A stretch of DNA of 64,000 nt, taken from NCBI RefSeq assembly GCF_011317445.1, contig NZ_JAAAPL010000003.1, positions 1-64,000 on the forward strand, read 5' to 3'. Positions 6,881 to 62,821 of this stretch are shown here, piece after piece. Positions within the stretch are counted from its first letter, which is position 1; every line of letters starts with the position of its first letter. The stretch is from Chelativorans multitrophicus (GTDB lineage Bacteria > Pseudomonadota > Alphaproteobacteria > Rhizobiales > Rhizobiaceae). The translations under genes were made by a program, and so were the position numbers. The notes beneath the pieces are model-generated. The model did no database searches and had not been told where the DNA came from. It was given only the letters and a program-made list of their open reading frames with translations.

Positions 6881-6890
6881 CGGCGTTCCC

Positions 6891-30553: not shown

Positions 30554-32725
30554 TCATTCGGCGGCGACAAGGGCCTCCGGATCGCCGTCACTTTCGGTCT
30601 CGGCGACTTCGCCCTCGCCGGCGAGGAAGTCGGGCAGCGCAACATCAGGCTCGTCCGCCTCGGCCGCAGCCTCGACGGCCGGCTCCTCGCTGAAGAGGCG
30701 CAGGGGTTCCGGGAGCCAGCCGGTATTGGCAAGCCGCTCCTCGGCCTCGGACGCCATCGCCATCTTGTCCTTCTTCTGAAGGTCGAGAAGATTGGCGGTG
30801 CTCTCGCCAACGCCTTCGGCGATGGCTTCGAGGATGCGCTTCTTCGTCACGCGACCGAAATAGTTCGCGACGGTGGGCCGGAACCCGGCTTCCGCCATGT
30901 CGAGATCGGTCACGCGGGCCAGGCGATCGGCTTCCGCCATGCGAGCCTGGAGCTGCTTTTCGGAGATGCCGCTGGCGCTCAGAGGGTTGGGCCGCTCGTA
31001 GAGCGCGTTGATCCCCAGAGACATGCAATGGGCCAGCAGCGCCATCCGGCTTTCGTCATCAAGCGCAACGAGCCAGTCCCAGAGTTGGTCGTCGTCGGTC
31101 GGGACCTGGGCCTTCCATGCGGCGTGCCGCTCGTCCACGGCCTTGGCGTAGGGCGTGGTCTTGAGGTCGGTTCCCTGATTGCTGCAATAGACCTCGTGAA
31201 CCGAGACTTGAACGCTCGCGCCGCGCGTGGACCGCCTGAATGTGTCACGAACCAGCTTGTGCAGCACCGCCGTCATGGCGACGTGCGGATTGCTACCCAC
31301 TGCGTTGCGCAGCGCGATGGTGCGATGCGCGGACAGCTCGATCACCAGCTTCTCGGGGAGAGGCTTGATGACGTCCACTTCCTCTTCGGGCTCAACCGGC
31401 TGGCCGTTGACGGTGACGACGGTGTGCTGCGCGTCGGGCGCCATATCGCCATCGCCGTCGATGCCGACCTCCGGCTCGACGCCTTCGGTGTCCTCTCCAT
31501 CGACGGTCTCCACCGGCTCGTCCTCGGGACGCACCCAGCCGCGATCGACGACAAGCTCGCCGTCCTCGTTGACGGTGACGAAGGCGCCGCCGATGGCGAT
31601 GTCGGCCGGATCGAAGACGGTCGGGCGACGCTCGAAGGCTTCGAGCTGCTTTTCGATCTCGCCAAGGCGCCGATCGATTTCTTCGGGCAGCTCCTGATCG
31701 GCAGGATACTTGGCCTCAAGGCGCTCCTGCTCGTCGCGCAGCTTTTCGCGCTGGCGACGCTCCTTCGCGGACATTTCAGCGGGCGTGCCGACGATCCCGC
31801 GCAGGTCGTGGTCATAGCCATAGGGAAGGTCGAGGTCGGCTTCGACCCACTTCCAGCCCTCGGTGGCCACCTCGTCGGCGGCGGCCTTCAGCTTCTCGGC
31901 GACCAGACGGTCGAGGAGCGACACGTCTTCGAGCCAGCCCTCCTCGTCATCGTCGAAGAGGTAGCGTGGCAGGACCGGCCCGCCCGCTGCCAGGTAGGCG
32001 TCGAGGCCGACGAAGACCGCGCGTTTGTCGGACGCGGGAACCTCGGTCTCGGTGAGCATCTCCCGGATTTGCCAGGGCTCCTTGTGGTGGGACTGCCGGA
32101 CGGCGTCCCATACTTGTTCTTGCCGCTCGTGATCCGGGTGCGCGGTAAACGCCTCCAGCGTCTTGAGCGTCATGCCGTTTTCGGCATAGACCTCATGCAG
32201 CTTGGGCGAGACCTTGGCGAGCACCAGGCGCTGCTCGACATAGCGCGTCGTCGTGAAGTAGGCGCTGGCGACCTCCTCATGGGTCATGCCGCCATCGACC
32301 ATGCGCTTGAACGCCTTGAACTGGTCGAGGGGATGGAGCGCCAGCCGGAACGTGTTCTCGGCGAGCGAGTCGTCGACGGCGGAGGTCTTGGCGTTAGCCT
32401 TCTTGACGATGCAGGGGATCAGGCCATCCTCGGGGAAGCGGCCGGCCGCGACCAGACGTGCGATCGCACGATAGCGGCGGCCGCCCGCCGGTGTCTCGAA
32501 ATCGCCGGTCTCGTTGCCGTCGGCGTCGAGGACAGCGCGGACGTTGATGCCCTGGATCAGATCCTCGCGGCGATCGATGTCGAAGGTAAGCTCGTCGAGG
32601 CCAGCTTCGACGTCGACCTCGCGCACATTGTCGTTCGACAGATGGATGCGGTTGAAGGGAATGTCGCGCGCCCGCGAGAACTCGATCAGTTCGAGGGCGG
32701 GCTTCTTCTTGGCAGCTCGGGCCAT
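30554..32725 (-). CDS. ParB-like nuclease-domain protein
   Basis: 723 residues. The ParB N-terminal domain (about residues 15-110) has DIPFNRIHLSNDNVREVDVE and the motif TPAGGRRYRAIARLVAAGRF. A helix-turn-helix follows (MTHEEVASAYFTTTRYVEQR). The large C-terminal region is acidic with a coiled-coil stretch (SAKERRQREKLRDEQERLEA). No parA is adjacent, so this is an orphan ParB-like protein of the leading-region type rather than a partition pair. It is preceded by a structured repeat leader. Confidence 0.87.
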   Translation of the reverse strand: MARAAKKKPALELIEFSRARDIPFNRIHLSNDNVREVDVEAGLDELTFDIDRREDLIQGINVRAVLDADGNETGDFETPAGGRRYRAIARLVAAGRFPEDGLIPCIVKKANAKTSAVDDSLAENTFRLALHPLDQFKAFKRMVDGGMTHEEVASAYFTTTRYVEQRLVLAKVSPKLHEVYAENGMTLKTLEAFTAHPDHERQEQVWDAVRQSHHKEPWQIREMLTETEVPASDKRAVFVGLDAYLAAGGPVLPRYLFDDDEEGWLEDVSLLDRLVAEKLKAAADEVATEGWKWVEADLDLPYGYDHDLRGIVGTPAEMSAKERRQREKLRDEQERLEAKYPADQELPEEIDRRLGEIEKQLEAFERRPTVFDPADIAIGGAFVTVNEDGELVVDRGWVRPEDEPVETVDGEDTEGVEPEVGIDGDGDMAPDAQHTVVTVNGQPVEPEEEVDVIKPLPEKLVIELSAHRTIALRNAVGSNPHVAMTAVLHKLVRDTFRRSTRGASVQVSVHEVYCSNQGTDLKTTPYAKAVDERHAAWKAQVPTDDDQLWDWLVALDDESRMALLAHCMSLGINALYERPNPLSASGISEKQLQARMAEADRLARVTDLDMAEAGFRPTVANYFGRVTKKRILEAIAEGVGESTANLLDLQKKDKMAMASEAEERLANTGWLPEPLRLFSEEPAVEAAAEADEPDVALPDFLAGEGEVAETESDGDPEALVAAE

Positions 32726-32830
32726 GGTGGTTTCTCCGTGACGGGCGCCGAGAGCCACTCTCTCGACCGTAAACCCGTCACGAAAACCCCATTCCCTCTC
32801 TCCCTCTAACCTTCCGCGGCCGGCACCGCG
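32726..32830 (-). promoter_or_regulatory. Structured leader before the ParB-like gene (nested hairpin)
   Basis: A perfect 9-bp outer stem (CGTGACGGG at 32737-32745, CCCGTCACG at 32774-32782) encloses a 6-bp inner stem (CGAGAG at 32749-32754, CTCTCG at 32760-32765) with a 5-base loop. The architecture equals that of the ardC leader, with compensating changes in the inner stem. CT-rich tracts flank it (CCCTCTCTCCCTC). Confidence 0.8.
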
Positions 32831-33655
32831 TCAGCGGCCGAAGCGCTGGCACGGCCGCTCGTCATTGACGCCATATTTCCGGCGCAGCGCGACGATGGCC
32901 GCCTCCTGTCGCTCGATCCTACGCCGCAGCCGGTCGAGGTCCGGCCCGACCGCAACGAGCAGATCATCGAGGACACACAGATACGCGGCCTCGTCCGCGC
33001 CGGTCCACCGGCTCATGCGGCGGTTATAGTGGCGTGCCTTCGGCCTCTGCTGGATCGTCATGGCCTCGGCGCGGTCGCGAACGGCGCGTTCGGCGAGGGC
33101 GAGGTTGTGGCGGGCATCGGCGAGGGTCTGCTCCATTCGCGCGAGAGCGGCGCTCAGGGCGTCGCGGGTCATCATGACGATCTCCATGTCGATGGGAAGC
33201 CAGGCCGCCAGCCGGGCGCGGCGATGGTTGTGGGGAGAGCAATGACAGGCAGTCAGGGGGTCGGAGGCATCGTCGCCGTCGCGGAAGCGCGGCGGTATCT
33301 CGTCCTCCGGCCCTTGCCAGAGGATACGATCGCCGCGCCAGATCGTGACGAAGCCGCCGCCCTTTGGCGCGGGCTTCGGCGGAGCGGCCTCGAAGTTGCG
33401 GCAACTGAAGTTCCCCGCCGTGCCTGCGAAGGCGGGTATCTCGGAATTGCCGAGCAGCACGCGGTCGCAAGTGCCGGTCGGGCGCTTCACGCGGCGGCGG
33501 GAGAGGCCGAGCCGGAAGAACTCGTAGTCGCGTTCGAGGTTTTCCGGCGGCGGCGTCCAGTGGCGGCAGTCGCGGCAGCGGCCCGGCCTGTCGGGCGTGG
33601 GATCGTCGAGCGGCGGCCCGCCATTGTGGCGGAGCGGAGGCGGGCGGTCAGCCAT
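32831..33655 (-). CDS. Two-part protein of unknown function with a Cys cluster
   Basis: 274 residues. The N-terminal part holds cysteines in RCRDCRHWTPPPENLERDYE, GTCDRVLLG and FSCRNFE, suggesting a metal site. The C-terminal part (MMTRDALSAALARMEQTLAD, then HNLALAERAVRDRAEAMTI) is helical and could also be read as a separate short gene from an internal ATG. The start at 33653-33655 overlaps the upstream stop by 8 bp. Confidence 0.6.
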   Translation of the reverse strand: MADRPPPLRHNGGPPLDDPTPDRPGRCRDCRHWTPPPENLERDYEFFRLGLSRRRVKRPTGTCDRVLLGNSEIPAFAGTAGNFSCRNFEAAPPKPAPKGGGFVTIWRGDRILWQGPEDEIPPRFRDGDDASDPLTACHCSPHNHRRARLAAWLPIDMEIVMMTRDALSAALARMEQTLADARHNLALAERAVRDRAEAMTIQQRPKARHYNRRMSRWTGADEAAYLCVLDDLLVAVGPDLDRLRRRIERQEAAIVALRRKYGVNDERPCQRFGR

Positions 33656-34046
33656 GACGCACTGCCTTCGCCGGCGCTGCAAGCACGGCGCGGAATGTGG
33701 TCGGCAGGAACACGTTCTCGGGCGAGTCGGCGAACATCGGTGCGATCTGGTTCGGGCGATAGCCGGCCAGGCCGCAGGCGATCGGCGTGACCTCGAAACG
33801 CAGGTCCGGCCGACGACGCGCGTAGCCGAGGAAGTCGGCGACATAGCTGCGGATCACCTCAAGCGGGAGGACGCGCAGATGGCGATCCTTCGTCGGGAGC
33901 GCATAGGAATTGCCCTGCAGACCGACGCCGCGGCCGTAGATCGCGCCACGGTGCTGGCGCGCCCACAGAGCCGCGCCCTTGCCGTGGCGGCCGGCGAGGT
34001 TGGAGCCGAAGACGAAGACGGGTGGGGTGGAGATCGGGACAGTCAT
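33648..34046 (-). CDS. A1S_2505-like (macro-domain-like) protein
   Basis: 132 residues. FVFGSNLAGRHGKGAALWAR, then GAIYGRGVGLQGNSYALPTK, is the signature of the phage-associated A1S_2505 family, which I recall as being related to macro domains that bind ADP-ribose. It ends with ITPIACGLAGYRP. In an antirestriction block an action on nucleotide signals is conceivable but not shown. Confidence 0.7.
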   Translation of the reverse strand: MTVPISTPPVFVFGSNLAGRHGKGAALWARQHRGAIYGRGVGLQGNSYALPTKDRHLRVLPLEVIRSYVADFLGYARRRPDLRFEVTPIACGLAGYRPNQIAPMFADSPENVFLPTTFRAVLAAPAKAVRHG

Positions 34047-34377
34047 GGAATGCTCCTACCTGTTGCCGCTCGCCGTGAGCGGTAGGGCTCCGAGGGACCG
34101 CCGCAATTCCGGACAGTCACCGAAGCGGTCGCCTGCGGGCGGCTTGCGATGGGGAACGGCAAGGCCGTCGACTTTGCGGGGGCTGCGGCTGCAGGCGGGG
34201 AGAACACCGCCTATGGCGAGCGGCGGCGGCCAAGAGCAGTCGTGATCGTCACGCCGCCCTCCCGCTCGTGACCCGTCCGGGCCGTGCCGCCCGCCGGACT
34301 ACAACCGGCCGCGTGTCGGCCGCCTGTGCGATGCGCTCGATGGTGGCCAGGTCCGTGTCGGAGCACTCGCCCGTCAC
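34047..34377. other. Intergenic region with a possible 42-residue frame
   Basis: 331 bp. The only gene-like item is a leftward frame at 34249-34377, starting with GTG and encoding VTGECSDTDLATIERIAQAA plus a basic tail. It follows directly, in the same frame, the TAA of the 215-residue gene. A short hairpin lies near 34063-34085. Otherwise nothing seen. Confidence 0.4.
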
Positions 34378-35025
34378 TTAGATCTCGACGAAATGGCCGC
34401 CGCTGCCGACCTTGGAGTCCCGCAGGCGATGGTTGGATGAGGTGTAGAAGCTCTCGTGCCTTTCGATGAGACGGACACGCGAGCGCAGGAACAGGATGCC
34501 GGAGCCGAGATTGCCGCAGAACAGCAGCTCGTCGGCTTCCGTGGTCTTCGGCGCGCCGCCGATCTTACGCTGGCCGATCTGGCGGAAGGCCGCGTCGAAG
34601 CTCGACGGGTCAGGCGTCATCCGCGCCTTCAGCTCGGGATGGAACTTCCAGGGCGGACGGTGCGGATCGACGCGGCCGACGTCGATCTGATGGAGGAGAT
34701 CGGCGAAATACCCCGGATCGGCGGGATAGGGGCAATCCCGCCAGATCTCGCGCACGGTGCGCCGCAGCGCGTCGGGCAACGCGAAGAGACGCGCGCGGGC
34801 CTTGCGCCAGGAGGCCGCCCGCATGCGGCGGCGCTCCCGCTCGGCCTCGTCCCACCAGACGCCGCGACGGGCCATCTCCTCGTCGACGCCGTGCTGGCCG
34901 TCGGCGATCTGGTCGGCGAAGAGGGGCAGCGCCTCCCGTTCGAGGCGCTGCTTGCGGAGGAACGCCGCGCGCTTGCGCGACGTGTCATTGTAGGGTTCGG
35001 GCCTGTGCCAGCGGCGGAAGCGCAT
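34378..35025 (-). CDS. Protein of unknown function, conjugative-element type
   Basis: 215 residues, basic and Trp-rich at the start (MRFRRWHRPEPYNDTSRKRA, then WWDEAERERRRMRAASWRKA). A compact middle part follows (CPYPADPGYFADLLHQIDVG). The start at 35023-35025 shares one base with the DUF2958 stop. Not recognised. Gene order with DUF2958 and ardC is typical of these elements. Confidence 0.75.
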   Translation of the reverse strand: MRFRRWHRPEPYNDTSRKRAAFLRKQRLEREALPLFADQIADGQHGVDEEMARRGVWWDEAERERRRMRAASWRKARARLFALPDALRRTVREIWRDCPYPADPGYFADLLHQIDVGRVDPHRPPWKFHPELKARMTPDPSSFDAAFRQIGQRKIGGAPKTTEADELLFCGNLGSGILFLRSRVRLIERHESFYTSSNHRLRDSKVGSGGHFVEI

Positions 35026-35396
35026 CACACGCCCTCCCACCGCGACTGCCGTGCCGTGCGGATGATCCGTTCGGCCGCGCGGATGCTGCCGGCCTCCCGC
35101 GCAGCCTCGGTCCAGACCGAGATCGGAAAGTCGCCGGTAAAGAGGACGTCGCGCTCGATGCCCAACCCGAACGGCAGGCGCACCGAGATCATTTCCTCGA
35201 GCGAGAAATAGCCCAGCTCCGGCTCGCCGAGATCGGCGAGACCGAAAAGCGTATCGCCGTCCCCGTCCAGTTCGGTGGCCAGCCAGACGCCGGCGCCGAG
35301 CGGATTGAAGAACTTCACCACCGGCACATGGTCGGCGTCGCGGATGCGGCCATTGGCCAGAAGCTGGGCGCGCAACTCGTCGGTGAGGAGGATCAT
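35025..35396 (-). CDS. DUF2958 family protein
   Basis: 123 residues, matching DUF2958: MILLTDELRAQLLANGRIRD, then PVVKFFNPLGAGVWLATELD and DTLFGLADLGEPELGYFSLE. Short cytoplasmic proteins of unknown function, almost always next to ardC in mobile elements. The start overlaps the ardC stop by 4 bp. Confidence 0.88.
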   Translation of the reverse strand: MILLTDELRAQLLANGRIRDADHVPVVKFFNPLGAGVWLATELDGDGDTLFGLADLGEPELGYFSLEEMISVRLPFGLGIERDVLFTGDFPISVWTEAAREAGSIRAAERIIRTARQSRWEGV

Positions 35397-36358
35397 GCCG
35401 CCCTCCTGTCGATCTCGACCGCGCCCATGTCGGCGTCGCCGCTGTCATCGGCCTCGGCGCTTTCCGGCAGGAAGCCGAGCAGCCAGTCAGCCGCCTTGCT
35501 GGCGAGACTGGCGGCCCGCACGATGGCGCGGTTGTCCTCGCGCAGCACCTCGAGCCAGGAGCCGATATAATCGGCATGGCGCACCGTGGGCGTGATGCCG
35601 AGTGAGGCGCAGCAGAACGCCGCGTTCAATTCGGCGACCAACTCCTCGAAGGCGTATTTCTTCGTGCCGAAGCCGCCCGAGAGGTCACGGCCGAGCCGGG
35701 AGGCATGGCCCGTCGCGTGCCCCAGCTCGTGCAGGGCGGTGCGATGCCAGTTGATGGGCTCGAAATAGGCTTGCGGCGGCGGGACCTGAACATAGTCGAG
35801 CGCCGGGACGTAGAAGGCCCGGTTGCCGCCGATGCGCAGGTCGATGTCCGTTGCCGTTATCAGCGCCTCGACCCTGGGCTCGATCAGACCGGGAGGCGGC
35901 GGCGGTGCCGCGGCCATGACGTCGTCGGGCAGGCCCTCGCATTGGGCTGCGTTGAAGACGCTGTAGCGCTTGAGGAACGGGATCGCCTGCGGGTCTTCGC
36001 CGACCTCTGCGGCCCGCGTCTTCTCGCCGTCGGGGACGAATTTGTTGGCATAGACGATCGTCGTGCCGCGCTCGCCCTTCATCACGTTGCCGCCGAGCGA
36101 CTCGGCCTGCTTGTAGGTCAGCCAGCTTTGGCAGGGGTAGCCGTGCTGGACCACTGCGCCCCAAAGCAGCAGCACATTGATGCCTGAATAGTGCCGGTTG
36201 GTGGCAGCGTTCTTCGGCATGGCGAGCGGGGCGGCGGTGCTGCCCCAGGGCTGGACCCATGGAAGCTTTCCGGCCTCCAGCTCGGCGATGATTTTGTCGG
36301 TGATGTCGTCGTATAGGCTTGGCCGGTCGTTGCCGGGGCGTTGGGATTTCCTGGCCAT
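35393..36358 (-). CDS. ardC: ArdC-like antirestriction protein (ssDNA-binding plus zincin domain)
   Basis: 321 residues. The N-terminal ArdC ssDNA-binding domain (DDITDKIIAELEAGKLPWVQ, SGINVLLLWGAVVQHGY, GGNVMKGERGTTIVYAN) is followed by a zinc metallopeptidase-like domain with HRTALHELGHATGHASRL and FEELVAELNAAFCC. ArdC protects incoming single-stranded DNA and counters restriction. A structured repeat leader precedes it. A second ArdC-like gene lies at 62.8 kb. Confidence 0.94.
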   Translation of the reverse strand: MARKSQRPGNDRPSLYDDITDKIIAELEAGKLPWVQPWGSTAAPLAMPKNAATNRHYSGINVLLLWGAVVQHGYPCQSWLTYKQAESLGGNVMKGERGTTIVYANKFVPDGEKTRAAEVGEDPQAIPFLKRYSVFNAAQCEGLPDDVMAAAPPPPPGLIEPRVEALITATDIDLRIGGNRAFYVPALDYVQVPPPQAYFEPINWHRTALHELGHATGHASRLGRDLSGGFGTKKYAFEELVAELNAAFCCASLGITPTVRHADYIGSWLEVLREDNRAIVRAASLASKAADWLLGFLPESAEADDSGDADMGAVEIDRRAA

Positions 36359-36489
36359 CGGGATCGGTCTCCGCGACGGGCCTCGGGAGCCTCTCTCCCG
36401 ATCCTCAACCCGTCACGGCCAACCCGGCCATCCTCTTCCTCTCGCTGCGCCGGCCGAGCCGGCGCAAAGCGGCGCCTCGACGGGTGCGA
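36359..36489 (-). promoter_or_regulatory. Structured leader before ardC (nested hairpin)
   Basis: A 9-bp outer stem (36372-36380 with 36409-36417, one G-U in the leftward transcript) encloses a perfect 7-bp inner stem (TCGGGAG at 36383-36389, CTCCCGA at 36395-36401) with a 5-base loop. This is the same layout as the leader at 32.7 kb. Downstream CT tracts and an inverted repeat CGCCGGC/GCCGGCG near 36449-36465 complete it. Confidence 0.8.
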
Positions 36490-36807
36490 TCAATAAGACA
36501 GCGCACAGGGCCGCGCGGCCCAACGCGCGTTGCGGTGTGCGTCGAAATCAGGGTCGATTTCGCGGCAGAGACGATCGCCTTCCCTGCGCACCATCGAGTC
36601 GATGCCGGCGATGCGCAGCGCCTTGGCGAGACCCTCGCAATATTTGTCGACGATCAGCGCGGCTAGGTCCGGCGTCTCGGCCCCGCGCTCGACATCGTTC
36701 TTCCGAGACTGCGCGTAGGATCGCAGGTCGGCGAGCACCTGATGCTCGATCGCGTCGAGCAGGTGCGGCCAAATCGTTCCCGGTGGGAGATCCTTGAGCA
36801 CATCCAT
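36490..36807 (-). CDS. Small protein of unknown function
   Basis: 105 residues, soluble and helical (IWPHLLDAIEHQVLADLRSY, LAALIVDKYCEGLAKALRIA), ending CREIDPDFDAHRNARWAARP. Start at 36805-36807. It is the first gene left of the divergent yedK gene, so its promoter should lie in 36808-37015. Confidence 0.7.
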   Translation of the reverse strand: MDVLKDLPPGTIWPHLLDAIEHQVLADLRSYAQSRKNDVERGAETPDLAALIVDKYCEGLAKALRIAGIDSMVRREGDRLCREIDPDFDAHRNARWAARPCALSY

Positions 36808-37015: not shown

Positions 37016-37615
37016 ATGTGCAATGCCTACGAGCAACACGTCAAATGGGTTGAATACGTCAAGATGATGCAGGCGTTGGAATTGAACGTTCCGACGCAGC
37101 AAACCGAACTCGACCTTCCCTTCGCTAGCAACATTCGCATTAACGAGATGGGGCCGGTCATGAGGTCCACCGCGAACGACACCGAGATCGAGCTGGCGCC
37201 GATGAATTTCGGCCTGCCGTCCGACCAGCCCAAGCGCGGGCCTGTCTTCAACTTCCGCTCGGAAGGCCGCGACTTCTCCAAGACGAGACGATGCCTGATC
37301 CCCTCGTCGGGCTTTTTCGAGTTCACGGGCAGCAAATATCCGAAGACCAAGCATCGCTTCACGCTAAACGATGCCCCGTTCATGGCGATCGCCGGCATCT
37401 GGCGTGAAGCCAAGGGCAACCATCCGATGGCCTTCGCGATGCTGACGACCGAGCCCGGCCCGGACGTGAAGCCCTATCACGATCGCCAGATCGTGGTTCT
37501 GCGCCCCGAGGATTGGGCAGCGTGGATCTGGCTGACGAGGCCGGAGTCGGAACTTCTCCATCCGCTCGGAGCCGGATCGCTTGCGGTCGAGACGGTGCGC
37601 AAGGGCGCCGCCTAG
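37016..37615 (+). CDS. YedK/HMCES-type SOS-associated peptidase-fold protein
   Basis: 199 residues of the SRAP family, which shields abasic sites in single-stranded DNA by a covalent bond through Cys2. The catalytic start MCNAYEQH is intact. FNFRSEGRDFSKTRRCLIPS, then SGFFEFTG and AGIWREAKG, match the core, and the His is in KPYHDRQIVVL. It is one of the few rightward genes of element 1. It lies near the mutasome operon, fitting DNA-damage handling of transferred single strands. Confidence 0.92.
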   Translation: MCNAYEQHVKWVEYVKMMQALELNVPTQQTELDLPFASNIRINEMGPVMRSTANDTEIELAPMNFGLPSDQPKRGPVFNFRSEGRDFSKTRRCLIPSSGFFEFTGSKYPKTKHRFTLNDAPFMAIAGIWREAKGNHPMAFAMLTTEPGPDVKPYHDRQIVVLRPEDWAAWIWLTRPESELLHPLGAGSLAVETVRKGAA

Positions 37616-38226
37616 CGACGTGCATCGCGAGCGGCGTGCGCCGCCTCGCGTCGGGAACGAATAGCCCATCGGACATAGCCGATCGCCATCAACGCGAGAG
37701 CGGCGGCGGGTATCTGCGGATTCGGCCCAGCCGGAAGTCCGGCGATCGCCGTCGTGGCCAGCGTGTAGGCGAGCAAGAGCATGTTTGCCGCGACGAAGGG
37801 ATGGAGAACGTCCATGTCGGGGACGCCACGGTGCGCCAGTGCGATCCCGGCCACGAAGGCGCCGGCAACGAGCAGTCCGATTGCGATGACGTCGATGACG
37901 AGGCGCGCCGTCAAAGGCGCCCCCGCATTGAACGCCGCAACCTGCTCATAAAATCCGGTAAGGGAAGACGCCCAGAGCAGGACGATCGCGGCCAGCGTCA
38001 TGGAGACGAGGTGTGAAGGCGCGTTCTGTAGCCCGTGCGCGACGTCTCCGAGCCAGGGCGTGCGTGAGAGGGCGAGCAGCACACCATAGGAGGCGACCAT
38101 CGGGGGAACGAAAACGAGCATGCCGGGGATGCCAAAGTCGTAGCCGAGGACCAGGGTTGCGAGAAAGGCGATGCCGACGAGCGTGTAGGCCAGGACGAAT
38201 CGAAGGGTATTCGCGGTGAGGCGCAT
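37612..38226 (-). CDS. Multi-pass membrane protein, unknown function
   Basis: 204 residues with about six hydrophobic helices (FVLAYTLVGIAFLATLVLGY, GMLVFVPPMVASYGVLLAL, LVIDVIAIGLLVAGAFVAGI, NMLLLAYTLATTAIAGL). The start is probably MRLTANTL at 38224-38226; an earlier Met 22 codons upstream is possible. It converges on yedK, their stops overlapping in CTAG. No family recognised. Confidence 0.75.
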   Translation of the reverse strand: MRLTANTLRFVLAYTLVGIAFLATLVLGYDFGIPGMLVFVPPMVASYGVLLALSRTPWLGDVAHGLQNAPSHLVSMTLAAIVLLWASSLTGFYEQVAAFNAGAPLTARLVIDVIAIGLLVAGAFVAGIALAHRGVPDMDVLHPFVAANMLLLAYTLATTAIAGLPAGPNPQIPAAALALMAIGYVRWAIRSRREAAHAARDARR

Positions 38227-38306
38227 GTCGCGCGCTCCCATATCCGTTTGCGCTCGGCTGCCCTCCACGGCGGCGTGAGGGCAAGCAATCACATTCGGAC
38301 GCAGCC

Positions 38307-39593
38307 TCAGTCTATGTCAGAGCCATCGCCGCGATCAACATTTCCGAGGTTCTTTTCGGCCAGTTCCCTGAAGGCGTCCGGCACTGAACGCCCGCGGTCG
38401 AGCTGCGCGGTGGCATAGCCCAAGGCGTCGCGGCCGAAGCGGGCGCGCACGGCGTCCATGGCCCGGTCGGCCGACCAGCGAGCGATGCCCTGCCGGGTGC
38501 CGGGCCGGTGTTTTTCGTCCGGCAGGCCGAGCGGGAGGTCGAGCTGGATCGCAGGCTGCTGGCGCAGATGCGAGATCGAGACGGCGACCAGCGTGATGAA
38601 CCGCTCTCGCGGATGATCGGCCAAGGCGGCGCGCACCAGCTCCTCGGCGATCTCTGCCAGCATCGCTGTCGCCGAGATCGGCGCGTCGAGGGTCAGCGAG
38701 CGCGTAACGGCGTGCATGTCGACGAAGCGCACGCGCACGGTGATCGTGCGGCCCGCGAGCGCCTTGTCGCGCAGCCGCGCGGCAACGCGATCGGCCAGAT
38801 GGCGAACAACGGGCTTGAAGACCTGTTCGGTGGCCGGCTTTCGACCGAGCGCCGACTGTGCGCCGGCTGAGCGGGCGCGGGTGTGGGTGCGGATTTCGCG
38901 CGCATCGCGATTCCAGGCGAGCGCCGACAGCTTCTCGCCGGCTGCCGGGCCGAGCAGGCGTGCGAGTGAGTGGCCTGGCGTTTCCGCCAACTGGCCGATG
39001 GTGAGAATACCCTGCTCGCGCAGCTTGACCTGCGTGACTGGGCCGACGCCCCACATCAGCCCGACCGGGAGGGGATGGAGAAAGTCGATCTCACGGGTCG
39101 GATCGACGACGACGAGGCCATCGGGCTTGGCGACCTGCGAGGCGATTTTGGCGAGGTGCTTCGTGCGCGCTACGCCGACCGAGATCGGCAGGCCGAGCCG
39201 GTCGCGGATGCGTCGGCGGATCTCGGCAGCGATCTCGGCTGGCGGACCGAAGAGGTGGGTGCAGCCGGTGACGTCCGCGAAGGCTTCGTCGATCGAGATG
39301 CGCTCGACCAGCGGCGTGAAGTCGCCGATGATGGCAATTGCGGCGTCACCAAGGCGTTGATAGTCCTCGAAATGGCCGCCGACGAAGACGAGCTGCGGGC
39401 AGAGTTCCCGCGCCTTCCTGCCGGCCATGCCGCCCCTGACGCCGAACGCCTTGGCTTCGTAGCTGGCGGCCAGGACCACGCCGCCGCCGACTGCGATCGG
39501 CTTGCCACGCAGGGCTGGATTCAGGAGTTGCTCGACACTGGCATAGAAGGCGTCGAGGTCGGCGTGCAGGATGTTGGCGGCTTGATCCGTCAT
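38307..39593 (-). CDS. dinB: Y-family DNA polymerase IV (DinB)
   Basis: 428-residue translesion polymerase. [14 protein letters not shown] and [13 protein letters not shown] carry the catalytic acids, and [16 protein letters not shown] and [14 protein letters not shown] complete the palm. The end lacks an obvious clamp motif of the QLxLF type, though AIQLDLPLG is similar. The start overlaps the dnaE2 stop by 4 bp, so it is translated as the fourth gene of the mutasome operon. Confidence 0.94.
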
Positions 39594-42500
39594 CTGAAAT
39601 CCCGCGTCCTGACGCGGATTTCGCCTTTGCCGTCGCCCATTTCGTCCAGATGTTGGTAGGGATCGCCGATGTCGCGCGTGCGCGGCACCTTGGGCAACGT
39701 GCGCGGATCGGGAGCCGGGCTTCCATGGTGGAACTCGTCCCCGCGGCCGTGCGGCAGCGGAAATTCACCCTCCCGCTGGCCCACGGTCTGGAGAAGCGCG
39801 GTCAGGTCGGTGAGGTGGTGGGCGACGACATGCACCACCTCACCCTCACGCTGGACGCGACCCTTCACGCCGAGCATGGCCGATGAAAGAAGGACACGGC
39901 GGTATTTCTCGAAGGTCTTGGTCCAGACGACGATGTTGGCGATGCCGCTCTCATCCTCGACGGTCACGAACATCACGCCCTTGGCCGAGCCGGGCCGCTG
40001 CCGGACGAGGATCAGCCCGGCGGTCTCCAGCCAGCGCCCGTCGCGCGCGCCCATCGCTTGCGCGCAGGGCACGATGCGGCGGCGGGCCAGATCGGCGCGC
40101 AGGAACGACACCGGATGGGCGCGGAGCGAAAGTCCGGTGTGGCCGTAGTCCTCGACCACTTCCCGGCCATCGGTCATCGGGCGAAGCCGGACGGGCGGCT
40201 CGGGAAGCTCCGGGGCCGGTTCAGGTTCGTGGCGGGCGGCGGCGGCAAAGAGCGGCAAGGGCTCGTCGCGCAGCGGGCGGATCGCCCATAGCGCCTCGCG
40301 CCGGGCCAGGCCGAAGGCGGGACGGAAGGCGTCGGCCTCGGCGAGCCGGGTGAGCGCAGCGGTCGGGACGCCGGCGCGCCGCCAAAGATCGTCGACTGAG
40401 GCGAAGCGCAACTCCTCGCGCGCCGCGACAATCGCGGCCACATCGCGGTTGGGCAGCCCCTTGACCATTCTCATGCCGAGGCGCACCGCGAAGCGGCTTT
40501 CGTCGGCGGTCGGTTCGAGCGTGCAGTCCCAGCGCGAGCTATTGATGCAGACGGGTCGGATCTCGACGCCGTGGTCGCGGGCGTCGCGCACGATCTGGGC
40601 GTCGGCGTAGAACCCCATCGGCTGGGAATTGAGGAGCGCGCAGGCAAAGACGTCCGGATGCCAGCATTTCACCCACGACGAGGCATAGGCGATCAGGGCG
40701 AAGGATGCGGCGTGCGATTCCGGGAAGCCGTAACTACCAAAGCCTTCCAATTGCTTGAAGGTGGCGAGCGCGAAGGCTTCTTCATAGCCGTTGGCGACCA
40801 TGCCGGCGACGAGTTTATCGCGAAATTTCGAGACTCCTCCGGTGAATTTGAAGGTGGCCATGGAGCGCCGCAGTTGGTCGGCCTCGCCGGGCGTGAAACC
40901 CGCACAGGACACCGCAACCATCATGGCTTGCTCCTGAAAGAGCGGCACGCCGAGCGTCTTGCCGAGCACGGCTTCCAGCTCGGGCTTGGGATAATGGACG
41001 TCCTCGCGGCCTTCCCGTCGCCGCAGATAGGGATGGACCATATCGCCCTGGATGGGACCAGGCCGCACGATGGCGACCTCGATGACCAGATCGTAGAAGG
41101 TGCGGGGCTTGAGCCGGGGAAGCATGGACATCTGTGCCCGGCTCTCAATTTGGAAAGTGCCAAGCGTATCGGCGCGCCGGATCATGGCGTAGGTGCGGGG
41201 GTCTTCTGCCGGAATGGAGGCGAGATCGAGCGCGACGCCCTTGTGCTCGGCCAGCAGGTCGAGGGCGCGCCGCATACAGCTCAACATGCCGAGACCGAGG
41301 ACGTCGACCTTCATCATCCTGAGCGCGTCGATGTCGTCTTTATCCCATTCAATAGTCTGGCGAGCCTCCATCGCTGCGGGTTCGATCGGGACCAGATCGT
41401 CAAGCCGGTCGCGCGTCAGGACGAACCCGCCTGGATGCTGGCTCAAGTGTCTGGGAAAGCCGATCAGGGCGCGGGCAAGCTCCAGCGTCAGCCGCAGCCG
41501 CCGGTCGGCCATGTTGAGGTTGAGCTGATCGACGTGTTGGGGACCGACTTCTTGCTCGGACCAGCCCCAAACCTGGGTGGAGAGCGTGCTGATGAGGTCT
41601 TCGGGAAGGCCGAGCGCCTTGCCGACGTCCCTGAGCGCGCCTTTGGCGCGGTAGCGGATCACAGTGCAGCACAGCGCGGCACGGTCGCGGCCGTAGGTCG
41701 CGTAGATCCACTGGATGACCTCCTCGCGCCTGTCGTGCTCGAAATCGACGTCGATGTCGGGCGGCTCATTCCTCTCGGCCGAGACGAAGCGCTCGAAGAG
41801 GAGCTGGTTGCGGTCCGGGTCGATCGAGGTGACGCCGAGCACATAGCAGACCGCCGAGTTTGCGGCCGAGCCGCGCCCCTGGCACAGGATGCCCTGGCTG
41901 CGCGCGAAGCGAACGATGGAATGGACGGTGAGGAAGTAGGGCGCGTAGTCGAGCTGGGCGATGAGGCCCAGCTCATGGTTAAGCGTGGCGCGCACGGTGT
42001 CGGGCAGGCCGTCGGGATAGCGGGACGCAGCGCCTTCCCAGGTCAGGCGCTCGAGCGTCTGCTGGGGAGACAGCGCGGGGTCGTCGCGCTCCTCGGGATA
42101 TTGATAGACCAGCTCGTCGAGAGAGAAGCGGCAACGCTCCGCGATCTCGACCGTGCGCGCCAGCGCCTCGGGATAGCGGGCAAACAGCCGGTGCATTTCC
42201 TCGGGGCTCTTGAGATAGCGATCGGCGTGGCGCTCGCGGCGGAAGCCGAGCGCATCCACGGTGGTCGTGTGGCGGATCGCCGTCACCACGTCTTGGAGAA
42301 CGCGGCGTCCCGGCTCGTGAAACAGGACGTCGTTGGTGACGACACATGCCACGCCCATGCGCGACGCAAGGCCGGACAACTCATGGAGGCGCATCTGGTC
42401 GTTGGGACGGCGCCGCAGGGTGAGCGCGAGATGGGCGCGATCCCCGAAGACATCGCGCAGGCGGCGCAGCCGCATCGTGCAGGTCTCGTCGGCCTCGTCG

Positions 42501-42880
42501 GGCACGAGAAGGGCGATCTGCCCCTCGGCATAGCGCGCAAGATCGGTCCATTCGAGATGGCACTTCCCTTTTCCGGCCCGACCCTTGCCGAGACTCAGCA
42601 GCCGGCAGAGCCGCGCATAGGCTGCGCGGTCGGTCGGATAGACGAGGATCGACGCGCCGCAGGCCAGGTCGAGACGGCAGCCGATGACCAGCCGTATGCC
42701 TGTCGCCTTGGCCGCCTCCCAAGCTCGGACGATCCCGGCGAGGGAGCTGCGGTCCACGATGCCGAGCGCCTCGATCCCCATGAGGGCGGCCGCGGCGAAC
42801 AGCTCCTCGGCCGACGATGCGCCGCGCAGGAAGCTGAAATGGCTCGTCACCTGAAGCTCTGCGTAGCGGTTCGCGGTCAT
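39590..42880 (-). CDS. dnaE2: Error-prone DNA polymerase III alpha subunit (DnaE2/ImuC)
   Basis: 1096 residues. The PHP domain starts [20 protein letters not shown]. The catalytic aspartates are in [20 protein letters not shown], followed by [22 protein letters not shown]-terminal OB fold ([20 protein letters not shown]) is present. It works with ImuA and ImuB in SOS-induced mutagenic repair. It is coupled by 4 bp to imuB and to dinB. The long frame on the other strand is a shadow. Confidence 0.96.
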
Positions 42881-44403
42881 CCGAAGATTCCGTGGATGAA
42901 CCAGCGATGCGAGCCCGTGGCCGGGTCTTCACCGTCGCCGGCGCGATAGAGCCAGAAGCGCTCGCCTGTGTCGTCCTCGACCCGGAAGTAATCCCTGACC
43001 GCCGCCATCTCGGCGTCCCGCGCCCACCATTCCCCGAAGACGCGCTCGGGGCCGTCCGCCCGCGCCACGCGGCGGCGAACGCCGCGCCAGGTAAAGGATA
43101 CGGGCGGATGGTCGGGGAGGAGAGCAATGGTCTCGATCGGCTCCGGCCTGAGCAGGAGCCGCGCAGGACGCGGCCAGGCGTCCGGCCAGGTCTCGCCGGT
43201 CTCGGGGGCAAGCGCCGGGATGTGCCGGACGCAGCGCTCCGGCACGTCGCTGGCGACGGGCGCAGCCCGATAGATGGCGCGTTCGCCAACCCGGTTCGCC
43301 AGCGTGTCGATGAGGTCGGAGATGTCCGGCTCGGCCTCTTCGATCAGCGTGGTCGCCGACTGGCGCGGCGTCAGCGGTTCGGCAAGCGTGGCGCAGAGCG
43401 TCATGGTCTCGATGCCGAAGCCGGGGTCGATGGTTTCGATCCGGTCGCACAGCAGCCGTGTCAGGCGCTTGGCGTCCCGCACCGGCCGGGCGGTTCCGAC
43501 CCGCACGGCCTCGGTGCGGTTGTCGACGCGCTGGCAGATGAGATCGAGCCGCCGTGCGCCCTGGCCCCTCTGTTCGAGGATCGCGCAGAGCGCAACGACG
43601 AGCTTTTCGATGTAACGCGCGATGGTCTCGGCCGCCGAGATGGGCTCGGCAAAGACCCGCCGCGTCTCGGCCAGCTCGGGCAACCGGATGGGCTCGATCG
43701 GCTCGGCCGAGCGGCCCAACGCCTCGTCGATCCGCCGGCCGGGCTCGGGGCCGAAGCGCAGCGCGAGGGGCGCGCGCGGCTGGGACAGCAAATCCTTGAT
43801 CCGCTCGAGGCCGAGGACGCGCAGCTCGGCGGGCATGGCCGGCGGCAGGCGCAGTGCGGCGATCGGCAGCGGCGCGATTACGGCGGCGCCGTGTTCGGGT
43901 TCGGCAATGAAGGTGGGGCTGGCCGCGTATCGCGCGAGCGCATGTGCAGCGCCCCAGGTGTCGGCGACGGCCGCGCGCGCCTCGACGCCCGACATGGCAA
44001 GGCGGCCGATCAGCGCGTCCAGCATCGCCGCCTCGCCGCCATGCAGATGATCGGCGCCCGAGCTGTCGATGACGATGCCGTCCGGCTGGTCGGCGGCGAC
44101 GATTGGGGAAAAGCGCTGGAGCATCCAGAGCGCCAGGCGCTCCAAGGCTTCGCTGTCGCCTACGGGATCGGCGTCGCGCACGACGAGCCCGGCGACGAGC
44201 GCCTGGGCTTTGGCCACCGGCGTCCCGGCGCGCAGGCCCATCGCCTGCGCTGCCGCATCCGCCGCCGTCACCACCCGCTTCGCTCCTTGCCGGCCCGAAA
44301 GGACCAGCGGAGCGTCAGCCGGCGGCACGGCGGAGCCGGTCATTCGCCGCACCCGGTCTGTCGGCCAGCTCGGCAGGTAGATTGAGACGACCCGTTTTCG
44401 CAT
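42877..44403 (-). CDS. imuB: ImuB, Y-family polymerase-like mutasome subunit
   Basis: 508 residues from [16 protein letters not shown] (ATG at 44401-44403); an ATG nine codons upstream is possible. The protein has the Y-family fold but lacks the catalytic acidic triad, as usual for ImuB (IYLPSWP in place of the D-x-D start). It bridges DnaE2 and the sliding clamp. It overlaps imuA by 89 bp and dnaE2 by 4 bp. Confidence 0.92.
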
Positions 44404-45070
44404 CACACGCTTCCAACTCGAAATCAGCACTTTCCCCTGCGCGCGCGCGGATCAGCTCGACCAGCCATCGGTGGCGGCCAAGGCCGGGAACCGGCAAGGG
44501 GGTTGAGGGCAGCACCGAGACTCGCCAGCGCGTGGCCGAGGAGGTTGGCTGCCCGAAATCCATGGAGTCGGCCTGACGGCGCCAGCGCCGCAGCGCCAGT
44601 CCGATCGTTCCGGTGCCCTCGGCGGCCAGCATCAACCGCCGGGACGCCTTCATGGACAGATGCGCGACCTCACCGACGACCGCGCCGAGCCCGCCATGGC
44701 GCAGCCCTTCCTCCATGCAGGCGAGAACGGAAGTCTGGTCGCCCGCTCTCAGATAGATCACGCGATCGGGACGCAGCCCGGCCTTGTCGAGCGCCGGGGC
44801 GAAGAGGTCCGGCTGCGTGATGCACCAGAGCACCTTCCCTTTCGTGCGGGCCGCGATCCCGGCGGCGAACAGCGCGGCGGCCGCCCCGTCGACGACGCCG
44901 TTGCCGCCCCCTGCGATCTCATGCAGCGCTCCGAGCGCGAGTCCACCGTCCGGAAGGCGCGCGTCGACCTCGGCGAGGCCGAACGGCAGCGCCGATCGCA
45001 CGCGCTGGCTTCGCCCTTCGATCCGGGCGATCTGCGCGCGCAATTCCGCAAGGGCGGGCTGTGGCCGCAC
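44315..45070 (-). CDS. imuA: ImuA, RecA-like mutasome subunit
   Basis: 251 residues. RSALPFGLAEVDARLPDGGL, then GALHEIAGGGNGVVDGAAAA and VLWCITQPDLFAPALD, is the ImuA/SulA-like family. ImuA binds RecA and promotes mutasome activity. It is the first gene of the imuA-imuB-dnaE2-dinB operon and sits 38 bp from an exact alphaproteobacterial LexA box. Confidence 0.92.
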   Translation of the reverse strand: MRPQPALAELRAQIARIEGRSQRVRSALPFGLAEVDARLPDGGLALGALHEIAGGGNGVVDGAAAALFAAGIAARTKGKVLWCITQPDLFAPALDKAGLRPDRVIYLRAGDQTSVLACMEEGLRHGGLGAVVGEVAHLSMKASRRLMLAAEGTGTIGLALRRWRRQADSMDFGQPTSSATRWRVSVLPSTPLPVPGLGRHRWLVELIRARAGESADFELEACDAKTGRLNLPAELADRPGAANDRLRRAAG

Positions 45071-45164: not shown

Positions 45165-46520
45165 TTAGGCGGCGAGCTGGTCGGGGGCCGATCCGGCACC
45201 TTCATCGACCGCGTTCTGTAGGAACCTCGCGAGGGCCGTTTTTCGGGAATCTCGGTCCAACGCATACGCGGTCTGTTTGAAGGCAATGCCATCGAGCAGG
45301 CCTTGAATGTAGCCGGAGATGGTATCGGCGGCCATGATGAGAGCAGTGTCGAGCGTATGGATATATTTGCTCGTCACGGTGCCCTTGGAGTGGCCGACCA
45401 GTGCGGCGATGGAGACTTCGGTGAAGCCGAGATCGTTTGCGATGCTCGCGAAGCTGTGGCGCAGGACGTGCGGTGTGACGCCGGCCAAGGGCGAGTCCTT
45501 GAACATCTGCTTCCAATGATTGGGGAAGCTGCCGAAGGCGCCGTCGTCCGACCGCGTGCCCGGGAACACATAAGTTGCGGTCGCCTTCTTCTTCTGCGCT
45601 TCCAGAAATTCGATGACCGGAAGGCCGATGGGTCGGGTAGAAGCGCCTTCCTTGCTATCGGTGAGACGCAAGCAACTCGCATCCGTGTCGACCTCGTTCC
45701 ACGTCAGCGAGATGATTTCTGAACGCCGACAACCCGTCATGGCGATCTGGCGGATGATCTCGACGGTCATCGCGTATTTCTCGTCCTCTGCTGCCTCGCG
45801 CAGCATGACGCCCAGGATGCGATACTCCGCGTCGGACAGCCGACGCTTGCGGACATTGTCTTTCGGCTTCTTGATGCCGTGCGCAGGGTTGCGGTCTATG
45901 ATGCCGGCATCTACGGCGTAGGTGAGGATGCCGCCAAGAAGACTGACGGTTCGCGCGGCGGTTCCCGCACCGCCGCGCACGATAGCCTTTCCCCGTAGCT
46001 TGTCGGTCTTGACCGAAACCCTGGTCTTACCCGCCATGACGTCTTTGAGGAGCTTGTTTACGTCGGCCTTGGCGAGATCCTTCACTCGGCGGGCGCCGAG
46101 AAGCGGAATGATGTGCCGGTTGATGCGCCCCGTATCGGTCACTATCGTCGTAGGCTTCTTTGGTCGACCGCCTTTTCCCATGATGAGGCCGGCGTTCATG
46201 TCATTCAGATAGAGAGTGCAGAGTTCTTTCACCGTGATTGCTTTGTGGTCGAGCTGGCGTTCTTCGGAGGGATTCTCGCCGCGTGCGACTCGGCCGAGTT
46301 GGGCTTTGGCCTCTTGCCGAGCGTTCTCGGCCGTCCAGATTCCATGAAGCCCGATGGTGAAGCGCCGGGTGCGACCGGCGGCTCGATACTGAATGAGATA
46401 GCTGCGTTTGCCAGATGCGAAAACGCGCAGGCCGAAGCCCGGCAGTTCGTCGTCCCAGACGAAGTAGTCCTTCTCGCGAACCTCGGCGGATTCGACAATT
46501 CGTTTGGTCAGTTTTGCCAT
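45165..46520 (-). CDS. int: Tyrosine site-specific integrase of element 1
   Basis: 451 residues. The N-terminal DUF4102-type arm-binding domain (YFVWDDELPGFGLRVFASGK) is followed by a SAM-like core-binding part. Catalytic residues are Arg265 (MTGCRRSE), His351 and Arg354 (HVLRHSFAS), His377 (VGHSKG) and Tyr386 (SKYIHTLD). Its 5' end faces a tRNA fragment 185 bp away, the attachment site. It therefore integrates at the 3' end of a tRNA-Arg gene. Confidence 0.95.
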   Translation of the reverse strand: MAKLTKRIVESAEVREKDYFVWDDELPGFGLRVFASGKRSYLIQYRAAGRTRRFTIGLHGIWTAENARQEAKAQLGRVARGENPSEERQLDHKAITVKELCTLYLNDMNAGLIMGKGGRPKKPTTIVTDTGRINRHIIPLLGARRVKDLAKADVNKLLKDVMAGKTRVSVKTDKLRGKAIVRGGAGTAARTVSLLGGILTYAVDAGIIDRNPAHGIKKPKDNVRKRRLSDAEYRILGVMLREAAEDEKYAMTVEIIRQIAMTGCRRSEIISLTWNEVDTDASCLRLTDSKEGASTRPIGLPVIEFLEAQKKKATATYVFPGTRSDDGAFGSFPNHWKQMFKDSPLAGVTPHVLRHSFASIANDLGFTEVSIAALVGHSKGTVTSKYIHTLDTALIMAADTISGYIQGLLDGIAFKQTAYALDRDSRKTALARFLQNAVDEGAGSAPDQLAA

Positions 46521-62273: not shown

Positions 62274-62821
62274 ATGCTCTACGTCGCCTATTTCTCTGCT
62301 GAGGCTTATAAAACCACAAAGTGGACGAAAACGCAAGGTAGAAATCTAAAAGTCTTCCACCTCCGTCTCGAACCCTGTCCCCTGGCACTGCACCCTAGCC
62401 CCGGCCACCGAGGACGCGAGCATCCCCGTCACCTGTGCGCTCGCCTAGCACTACCACGAGGTCGGGCGCACCGCAGGGACCGGCGAGCCAAGCCTGTTCT
62501 CGTCTTCCTCAGAACGGGCACTTCTCTGTTGGAATGTGCGGAAAGCCTTCCCCCTGGCCGGACCCCGTGCCGGTCTCCGGCACACCTCCTTCAGCGGAAA
62601 TACCCCGCAACGCCCCAAGTAAAAGCTAAGGGGCTTTGCCCCTCGCGCGGCAAGGGTAAAGTCGCTCCGCTCCCGATTTCCGAATTATTTTCCCCTTCGC
62701 CTTCGGCGAATTCCTCGCGAGGCAAAATAACCCGGAAATCGCCCTTGCCTTTGCTACCCCCACCCTCGCCGGGAGGCATCGGTTGCATGCGCAACCTGCT
62801 TTCAAAAGGAAGGGAAGGAAG
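62274..62821. other. Intergenic region between ietAS and the second ardC
   Basis: About 550 bp between divergent genes. The left part (62280-62345) is AT-richer and should hold the ietA promoter. The right part is highly structured (see the inverted repeat entry), including a small hairpin GGGGC/GCCCC at about 62629-62642. No gene supported. Confidence 0.6.
62675..62740. repeat. Nested inverted repeat upstream of the second ardC
   Basis: Outer arms of 17 bp (GATTTCCGAATTATTTT at 62675-62691 and 62724-62740) pair at 15 positions. Inside are a perfect hairpin TTCGCC/GGCGAA (62696-62701, 62705-62710) and the palindrome CCTCGCGAGG (62713-62722). The start codon of ardC lies 82 bp further on. It may be a single-strand promoter or initiation structure. 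Confidence 0.75.

Follow-up and report, generated by a model that had tools for sequence, protein, structure and literature searches.

The ardC gene and a ParB-like gene on a conjugative element of Chelativorans multitrophicus are each preceded by the same short leader. Both lie in the window, by which we mean the whole stretch of 64,000 nucleotides (nt) that was analysed (contig NZ_JAAAPL010000003.1, positions 1 to 64,000). Judged from sequence, the leader is a covarying mRNA-strand hairpin at a fixed place before the Shine-Dalgarno (SD) sequence GGAG and the ATG, accompanied by an AGAGK box, and the same leader stands before unrelated genes of one element. We consider it likely that it is a cis-acting RNA that controls translation initiation, is common to presumed establishment genes of alphaproteobacterial conjugative elements and is read by a putative AGAGK-binding factor. 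More than two hundred related leaders occur in mobile elements of one bacterial class, always in front of a similarly small set of genes, which suggests a so far undescribed way of joint control.

The hairpins before ardC and the ParB-like gene

Both genes are read from the minus strand, so it is the folding of the minus-strand mRNA that matters. On this strand, each of the two gaps upstream forms a 49-nt hairpin with an outer stem of 9 base pairs (bp), an asymmetric internal loop, a 7-bp inner stem and an AGNGG loop. The last base of the outer stem is the first G of the SD sequence, and in both leaders the ATG lies 8-10 nt beyond GGAG. The genes and the parts of their leaders, with SD pairing predicted base by base, are:

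30554-32725, minus: ParB-like protein, 723 amino acids (aa), first gene behind the leader (PF17762 HTH_ParB, 6.8e-5; ParB/Noc relatives by profile and fold)
32734-32782, minus: ParB-like (parB) leader hairpin, 49 nt, from outer stem to end of GGAG (74.0 bits with model R1 described below, of which it is a training member; RNA fold -33.0 kcal/mol, z -5.13)
32774-32782, minus: parB outer stem, 5' arm
32737-32745, minus: parB outer stem, 3' arm, last base being the first G of GGAG
32760-32766, minus: parB inner stem, 5' arm
32755-32759, minus: parB apical loop AGTGG (family consensus AGAGK)
32748-32754, minus: parB inner stem, 3' arm
32734-32737, minus: SD sequence GGAG of the ParB-like gene (predicted pairing 0.97/0.73/0.59/0.49 at 37 C)
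32798-32807, minus: parB upstream box AGAGGGAGAG, -25 to -16 of the outer stem, by sequence and family position
35393-36358, minus: ardC, 321 aa, first gene behind the leader (PF08401 ArdcN, 2.5e-41; PF18818 MPTase-PolyVal, 8.3e-50)
36369-36417, minus: ardC leader hairpin, 49 nt, from outer stem to end of GGAG (R1 76.3 bits, training member; RNA fold -34.5 kcal/mol, z -2.68)
36409-36417, minus: ardC outer stem, 5' arm
36372-36380, minus: ardC outer stem, 3' arm
36395-36401, minus: ardC inner stem, 5' arm
36390-36394, minus: ardC apical loop AGAGG
36383-36389, minus: ardC inner stem, 3' arm
36369-36372, minus: SD sequence GGAG of ardC (predicted pairing 1.00/0.99/0.00/0.01 at 37 C)
36433-36442, minus: ardC upstream box AGAGGAAGAG, -25 to -16 of the outer stem, by sequence and family position

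None of 200 shuffled sequences folded as well as the parB leader, and 5 of 200 as well as the ardC leader. The opposite-strand folds were -24.5 (z -2.71) for parB and -26.1 (z -1.08, 29 of 200 shuffles as good) for ardC. An earlier sequence-only reading of the window had described the hairpins on the plus strand, and we find them there as described: for parB, a 9-bp outer and a 6-bp inner stem with a 5-base loop and spacers of 3 and 8 bases, and for ardC, a 7-bp inner stem with spacers of 2 and 7 bases. Its 9-bp outer stem in the ardC gap holds for the minus-strand mRNA, where the full 9 bp form, including one U-G wobble; on the plus strand an A-C mismatch takes the place of the wobble and only 8 of 9 positions pair.

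Related leaders and the genes behind them

A third copy, found with the outer-stem pattern, precedes another ardC in the same genome, and an adjoining fourth copy precedes another ParB-like gene; the proteins behind them are 72% (ArdC) and 53% (ParB-like) identical to those of the window. The covariance model R1, built from these four sense-strand leaders, matched 10 places in its own genome at E-values up to 1, including the 4 training copies, and had matches in 33 of 121 relatives at an E-value of 0.01 and in 16 of 289 genomes of the class at 1e-4. A second model, R2, built from 150 matches, was run at 1e-4 on 398 genomes of the phylum and detected leaders in 32 of them, every positive lying within the same class (the own genome is counted in all three figures). 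Independently of the models, we scanned named genomes (at least 120 stretches) with a pattern in which the outer stem and loop were fixed and the inner stem and start codon left free, and obtained at least 141 distinct matches. By name, the matched records come from what we take to be Rhizobiales, Rhodobacterales, Sphingomonadales, Caulobacterales, Acetobacteraceae and others, the orders being assigned from genus names, and include a few labelled merely Proteobacteria or Bacterium. The leaders from 126 model hits and 141 pattern matches were merged, without repeats and those with less than 60 nt upstream, into a set of 253, which are distinct by sequence and not by lineage; some pattern contigs are genomes of the whole-genome sample (for example, L139 is G013 and L113 is G102).

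The leaders precede few kinds of genes. Open reading frames (ORFs) behind the 126 distinct model hits are ParB-like in 54 cases, ArdC in 32, DUF932-like in 24, of a 185-aa family in 7 and of a 135-aa family in 3, with 6 single cases, three of them at most 15 aa long through a cut at the locus end or an early stop. The 141 listed pattern matches are followed by ArdC (48), ParB-like (46), DUF932-like (27) and 185-aa (12) genes, by others (2) and by 6 unassigned ones, three of which start like ArdC or DUF932-like genes and then run off or stop early. The distance to the gene is nearly constant: counted from GGAG, the ATG stands at +7 to +9 in 123 of 126 model hits, 137 of 141 listed pattern matches and 249 of the 253 combined leaders. 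The name DUF932-like reflects a match under the Pfam cut-off (17.2 of 23 bits); this protein belongs to phrog_1362, whose function is unknown. The 185-aa family (L071:6045-6599, L004:4838-5383 and relatives) gave nothing above cut-off in Pfam, NCBIfam and PHROGs and nothing at E-values below 0.001 in a fold search; it is a candidate establishment gene. In L049, a leader at 6604-6653 stands before a gene at 6661-7629 that resembles phage phosphoadenosine phosphosulfate reductases (phrog_424).

Approached from the protein side, 28 ParB-like matches were found in 19 of 240 genomes of the class, and 20 of the 28 have the leader directly upstream. The eight leaderless ones (L253, L254, L255, L258, L259, L264, L265, L267) have at most 42% identity, as do three leader-bearing ones, and no leader was found at two ArdC relatives of 55-57% identity (L284, L285). 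ParB-like genes are the commonest neighbour, occurring in 39 of 42 neighbourhoods, all picked for holding leaders. Plasmid records with ParB-like relatives number 5000 or more, and among those 5000, 3981 are typed as conjugative.

In BLASTN searches with the ardC leader, 219 plasmid records matched at an E-value of 0.01, not individually checked as leaders. R2 confirms leaders in stretches of pCHQ1 (Sphingobium indicum UT26S), of pPAN1 (Paracoccus pantotrophus) and of four other rhizobial plasmid records; a stretch of an Acetobacter plasmid had none. Phage records gave zero matches when queried with the ardC leader; three viral-contig stretches match the leader. A metagenome-assembled genome labelled as a gammaproteobacterium (L200) has a leader before a DUF932-like gene, which may reflect misbinning or transfer outside the class. 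We also noted weak leader-like hairpins of 31-35 bits (L062:7270-7318, L066:6798-6845, L077:7513-7560, L039:149-197), which are without the AGAG loop and the exact box described below, precede the 135-aa family and a DUF2958-like gene, and represent either a diverged subclass or a different element.

Covariation and the strand of the fold

The sequence-only reading had seen selection for structure in the compensated inner stems and had proposed a covariance search of related elements for covariation and the same downstream genes. The two window copies by themselves provide thin evidence, namely one exchanged inner-stem pair; the search has now yielded both signals, and it is the covariation among relatives that settles the point in favour of selection. 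Across 115 distinct relatives, 97.5% of pair cells pair, and there are 156 cells with double changes, compared to 45 in shuffles. The double changes fall on 10 of 16 pairs, which 5 of 500 shuffles reach, and the covariation score was reached by none of 500. Sliding the partner arm abolishes the pairing signal. The 115-sequence alignment was fitted to the model; the alignment A4 holds 150 of 151 hits, and one incomplete row was omitted from the folding counts, leaving 114 of 115. Because R1 was trained on four sense-strand sequences, A4 leans towards the R1 structure and towards G-U pairs.

The pattern scan and unfitted alignments are less biased checks. Each of the seven inner-stem positions pairs in 112-139 of the 141 listed pattern matches, which is above the expectation for independence throughout, at one position barely. 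For unfitted alignments of 25 ParB and 25 ArdC leaders, the RNAalifold consensus is the same hairpin, spanning all four GGAG bases in the ParB leaders and two in the ArdC leaders.

The wobbles show on which strand the fold is maintained. The model set contains 215 sense-strand G-U pairs versus 22 A-C and 23 other mismatches, and the inner stems of the 141 listed pattern matches contain 20 A-C where 94 are expected (13 of the 20 at one position) and 142 G-U where 205 are expected. The sense strand is the more stable one in 112 of 114 leaders with RNA parameters and in 110 of 114 with DNA parameters, and R2 scores are 14-19 bits on the opposite strand versus 34-78 bits on the sense strand. This bias towards sense-strand G-U and sense-strand stability indicates that selection acts on the mRNA-like strand.

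These observations bear on three other explanations of the repeated hairpin. Recent duplication of one copy, which the sequence-only reading had named as a possible refutation, was evaluated on 102 leaders from genomes that also hold another leader class. In 100 of these, the best same-class leader of another genome beats the best other-class leader of the own genome (91 of 102 in a variant where 'same class' was open to an own-genome paralogue). The leaders have therefore diverged together with their genes, and we reject recent duplication. We also judge it quite improbable that the inverted repeat is a DNA operator, bound by a dimeric repressor, in which the RNA fold is incidental. The outer arms are indeed strongly conserved and form an inverted repeat, and the AGAG box could be read in DNA as well, but the inner-stem covariation, the sense-strand G-U pairs and the fixed spacing to GGAG and ATG speak against an operator, and so does the varying distance from one outer arm to the other (model hits of full length measure 46-53 nt).

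The third explanation had been one of two candidate functions in the sequence-only reading, which considered a cis-acting RNA or a single-strand promoter like Frpo of plasmid F. The covariation, the sense-strand wobbles and the fixed position relative to SD sequence and ATG bear out the former. For the latter, an Frpo/ssi-type hairpin on the entering strand would mimic a double-stranded promoter and drive early transcription, which would suit genes that look like leading-region genes and the presence of ParB-like genes in many conjugative plasmid records. The relaxase and coupling protein are encoded at one end of the window element. If the usual arrangement holds, with the origin of transfer (oriT) by the relaxase gene and the tra genes transferred last, it is the plus strand that would enter, which serves ardC and parB as template; whichever strand enters, a promoter of this type for the two genes must fold on the template strand. 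However, the fold is optimised on the sense strand and not on the presumed entering one, a scan limited to the sigma-70 type found no such consensus in either region, and the hairpin ends at the ribosome-binding site (RBS). Among the 253 leaders, the best template-strand match to TATAAT reached at most 3 of 6 positions in 235 and 4 of 6 in 18, with a -35 hexamer matching at 4 or 5 of 6 in 150. Such a promoter is thus a very remote prospect.

The upstream AGAG box

Upstream of the hairpin lies a box, AGAGKRAGAGK, which is common to the four main gene classes and was contained in no search model or pattern. Of the 253 leaders, 157 have the exact AGAGNNAGAG at -25 and 220 have it at some position within 60 nt upstream, almost always between -27 and -22; in the 135-aa class, 0 of 4 have it. 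In seven plasmid stretches outside the sets, 9 of 11 leaders carry the exact box and all 11 have the ATG at +7 to +9. The AGAGK unit of the box recurs in the hairpin loop, which is AGAGG or AGAGT in 92 of 115 relatives, and the resulting three copies of the pentamer look like recognition sites. The conserved part extends over about 75 nt, with no conservation further upstream across gene classes.

Two structural roles for the box were considered and rejected. A hairpin enclosing it is not a general feature, the mean number of enclosing pairs being 4.88 versus 5.15 in shuffled controls; the ParB class lies slightly over its control (5.76 versus 4.36). Inspection alone led us to discard pairing of the box with the 3' arm of the inner stem, since that arm varies and the box is near-invariant.

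Predicted pairing of the Shine-Dalgarno sequence

In the 220 leaders with exact AGAGNNAGAG, the mean predicted pairing of the bases G-G-A-G is 0.95, 0.95, 0.66 and 0.73, rising in the ParB class to 0.96, 0.98, 0.92 and 0.85. The outer stem is thus predicted to run into the SD sequence, covering on average all four bases in the ParB class and mainly the first two in the others, so that the folded mRNA should initiate poorly.

The two bases of the 3' arm next to GGAG, which mostly face GU, are coupled. They read GC in 149 leaders, AU in 52, AC in 7, GU in 13 and otherwise in 5 (226 of the 253, those whose 5' arm reads GU without gaps; P values ignore ancestry). The coupling is present in each of the four gene classes and least in ArdC (66, 3, 0 and 3). 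The dominance of GC and AU means that exactly one wobble is kept in 201 of 221 leaders. By nearest-neighbour energies, the two-wobble GU is 4.8 kcal/mol weaker than GC, and the no-wobble AC merely 0.4 kcal/mol stronger. The all-Watson-Crick state is therefore rare (7 of 226) though hardly more stable; the window parB leader is in this rare AC state. As a sense-strand wobble is an A-C mismatch in the template strand, a hairpin on the template strand may also be selected against.

RNA thermometers have a similar layout, in which a stem with a nearby wobble covers the SD sequence, and a temperature or ligand sensor would melt or switch without a trans-acting factor. However, the predicted SD pairing of the two window leaders is nearly flat from 20 to 65 C, on which ground we rejected a thermometer in silico; 49 nt is small for a ligand pocket, and the gene set suggests entry rather than heat or a metabolite. 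We find a sensor of either kind scarcely plausible. A trans-acting small RNA could instead open or close the leader by pairing with the conserved 5' arm or the purine box, for which the small-RNA-controlled rpoS leader is a precedent. Partial sequestration of the SD sequence would fit such control, and so would a 5' arm that is less variable than its partner, as is the case at pairs 2 and 3 (entropy 0.48 and 0.51 versus 1.00 and 0.99) and reversed at pairs 1 and 5. Against it, no Rfam family reached the gathering score in the window, although no direct search for such an RNA was made. We regard a small RNA as unlikely.

A proposed translational operator

For a cis-acting leader read by an AGAGK-binding factor, we propose the following course. 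The folded leader would hide part or all of the SD sequence, and a factor, probably a protein, would read the AGAGK units and lock or open the hairpin. Establishment genes would be translated together on fresh entry into a recipient, and their output would stay low once the host is established; we infer both this direction of control and the early role. The ParB-like protein could regulate itself. A more specific version is a post-transcriptional establishment regulon with one RNA operator (AGAGK twice in the box and once in the loop, SD sequence in the stem) on unrelated early genes of conjugative elements throughout Alphaproteobacteria, and with an undescribed RNA-binding regulator that recipients lack in its bound form, such that anti-restriction and ParB-like proteins are translated at once there and not in established hosts; this we offer tentatively, as somewhat less than an even chance.

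Several results weigh against this proposal. Outside the ParB class, SD pairing is partial, with values for the last two bases of 0.52/0.73 in ArdC, 0.49/0.68 in DUF932-like and 0.23/0.29 in 185-aa leaders. The window leaders are themselves on the open side, with only two SD bases paired for ardC and the graded values listed above for parB, so 'closed' may not mean off. Stability accounts for the coupling next to GGAG in part, explaining the avoidance of two wobbles and not that of none. The box is predicted to be partly unpaired (0.34-0.79 over ten bases), little different from a shuffled control. All counts and tests ignore shared ancestry. At an E-value of 1e-20, ParB-like proteins are absent from 2 of 33 leader genomes (G102, and G099, whose ardC was found only in pieces), and 10 of 41 genomes with ParB-like proteins, all of at most 40% identity, have no leader at 0.01. 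Finally, the own genome has no match to the CsrA family (PF02599) or to ProQ/FinO (PF04352).

Three candidates for the reader were set aside or weakened. CsrA/RsmA target leaders carry a repeated short motif near the SD sequence, with one copy in a hairpin loop, and thus resemble our leader in layout; they differ in the motif, which is GGA and not AGAGK, and with no PF02599 protein in the own genome we rejected a CsrA target. A ProQ/FinO target was rejected as the genome lacks PF04352; a protein annotated as ProQ/FinO (L301:10236-10736) does occur near a leader and a ParB-like gene on a Rhizobium leguminosarum plasmid. The ParB-like protein as obligatory reader is weakened by the 2 leader genomes without it. 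Its structure model has a ParB/Noc fold in the N-terminal part, and among the 50 of 113 fold matches listed there was no clear RNA-binding fold; the model is weak (predicted template modelling score, pTM, 0.37).

If the proposal is true, zygotic induction would occur at the level of translation instead of at a promoter, by a compact mRNA operator used by many plasmids and integrated elements of one class. The timing of conjugative entry genes is known mainly from F-like single-strand promoters and pLS20-type regions. The leader would then be a searchable signature that marks a co-regulated set, making the DUF932-like and 185-aa genes candidates for establishment or anti-defence functions, and it would point to a new RNA-binding factor.

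Relation to known systems

Rfam had 0 matches at gathering score in the whole window; between 22000 and 38000, 11 matches appeared at E-values up to 10, none of them over a leader. The families of a 2017 survey of 224 RNA motifs are reportedly in Rfam. We found no report of this leader in the open-licence literature of PubMed Central (PMC).

By analogy, the nearest precedent is EGeRS1 of pLS20-family Bacillus plasmids. According to PMC8708921, these are structured regions that precede ardC and other operons presumed to act in establishment, and each ends shortly before a likely RBS; the authors there consider a single-stranded DNA (ssDNA) promoter unlikely and call the mechanism unknown. EGeRS1 and the leader share the repetition of one structured region before ardC and other presumed establishment operons or genes, close to a likely RBS. 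They differ in that EGeRS1, as described there, measures 400-600 bp, has many inverted repeats and belongs to Bacillus, whereas the leader comprises 49 nt and a 10-nt box and belongs to Alphaproteobacteria; the sequences were not compared directly.

A survey of leading regions describes Frpo promoters, and the word Alphaproteobacteria is absent from its main text (PMC11541004). Like our leader, Frpo/ssi elements are folded and stand before leading-region and anti-defence genes; unlike it, Frpo mimics double-stranded DNA by a fold that contains -35 and -10 elements, while the leader has its fold selected on the mRNA strand, has no recognisable promoter and sits on the SD sequence. The STAXI motif, going by its entry in PMC2864571, is likewise a structured motif near genes for antirestriction and ssDNA-binding proteins, but it is a pseudoknot repeated two or three times, and the leaders are without an Rfam match.

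The window element

The conjugative element that includes the window encodes a VirB4/TrbE-like ATPase, a type II/IV secretion ATPase, a coupling protein, a relaxase (DUF3363/Relaxase) and a replication initiator RPA. A Strawberry-notch-type helicase and a tyrosine integrase (45165-46520) are also encoded in the window. A second ArdC-type gene, at 62783-63727 on the plus strand, is 47% identical to the first ardC in the genome search and is preceded neither by the hairpin nor by the AGAG box. The stretch from ardC to the integrase (37016-44430) holds genes for an SRAP peptidase, a DinB-type polymerase, a DnaE-type polymerase and an IMS-family (ImuB-like) protein, which constitute an SOS mutagenesis set on the element. 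At 36498-36517 on the minus strand, at the end of the ORF preceding ardC and upstream of the ardC leader, there are terminator-like hairpins (3 overlapping matches versus 0.1 expected), so ardC may need its own promoter or read-through.

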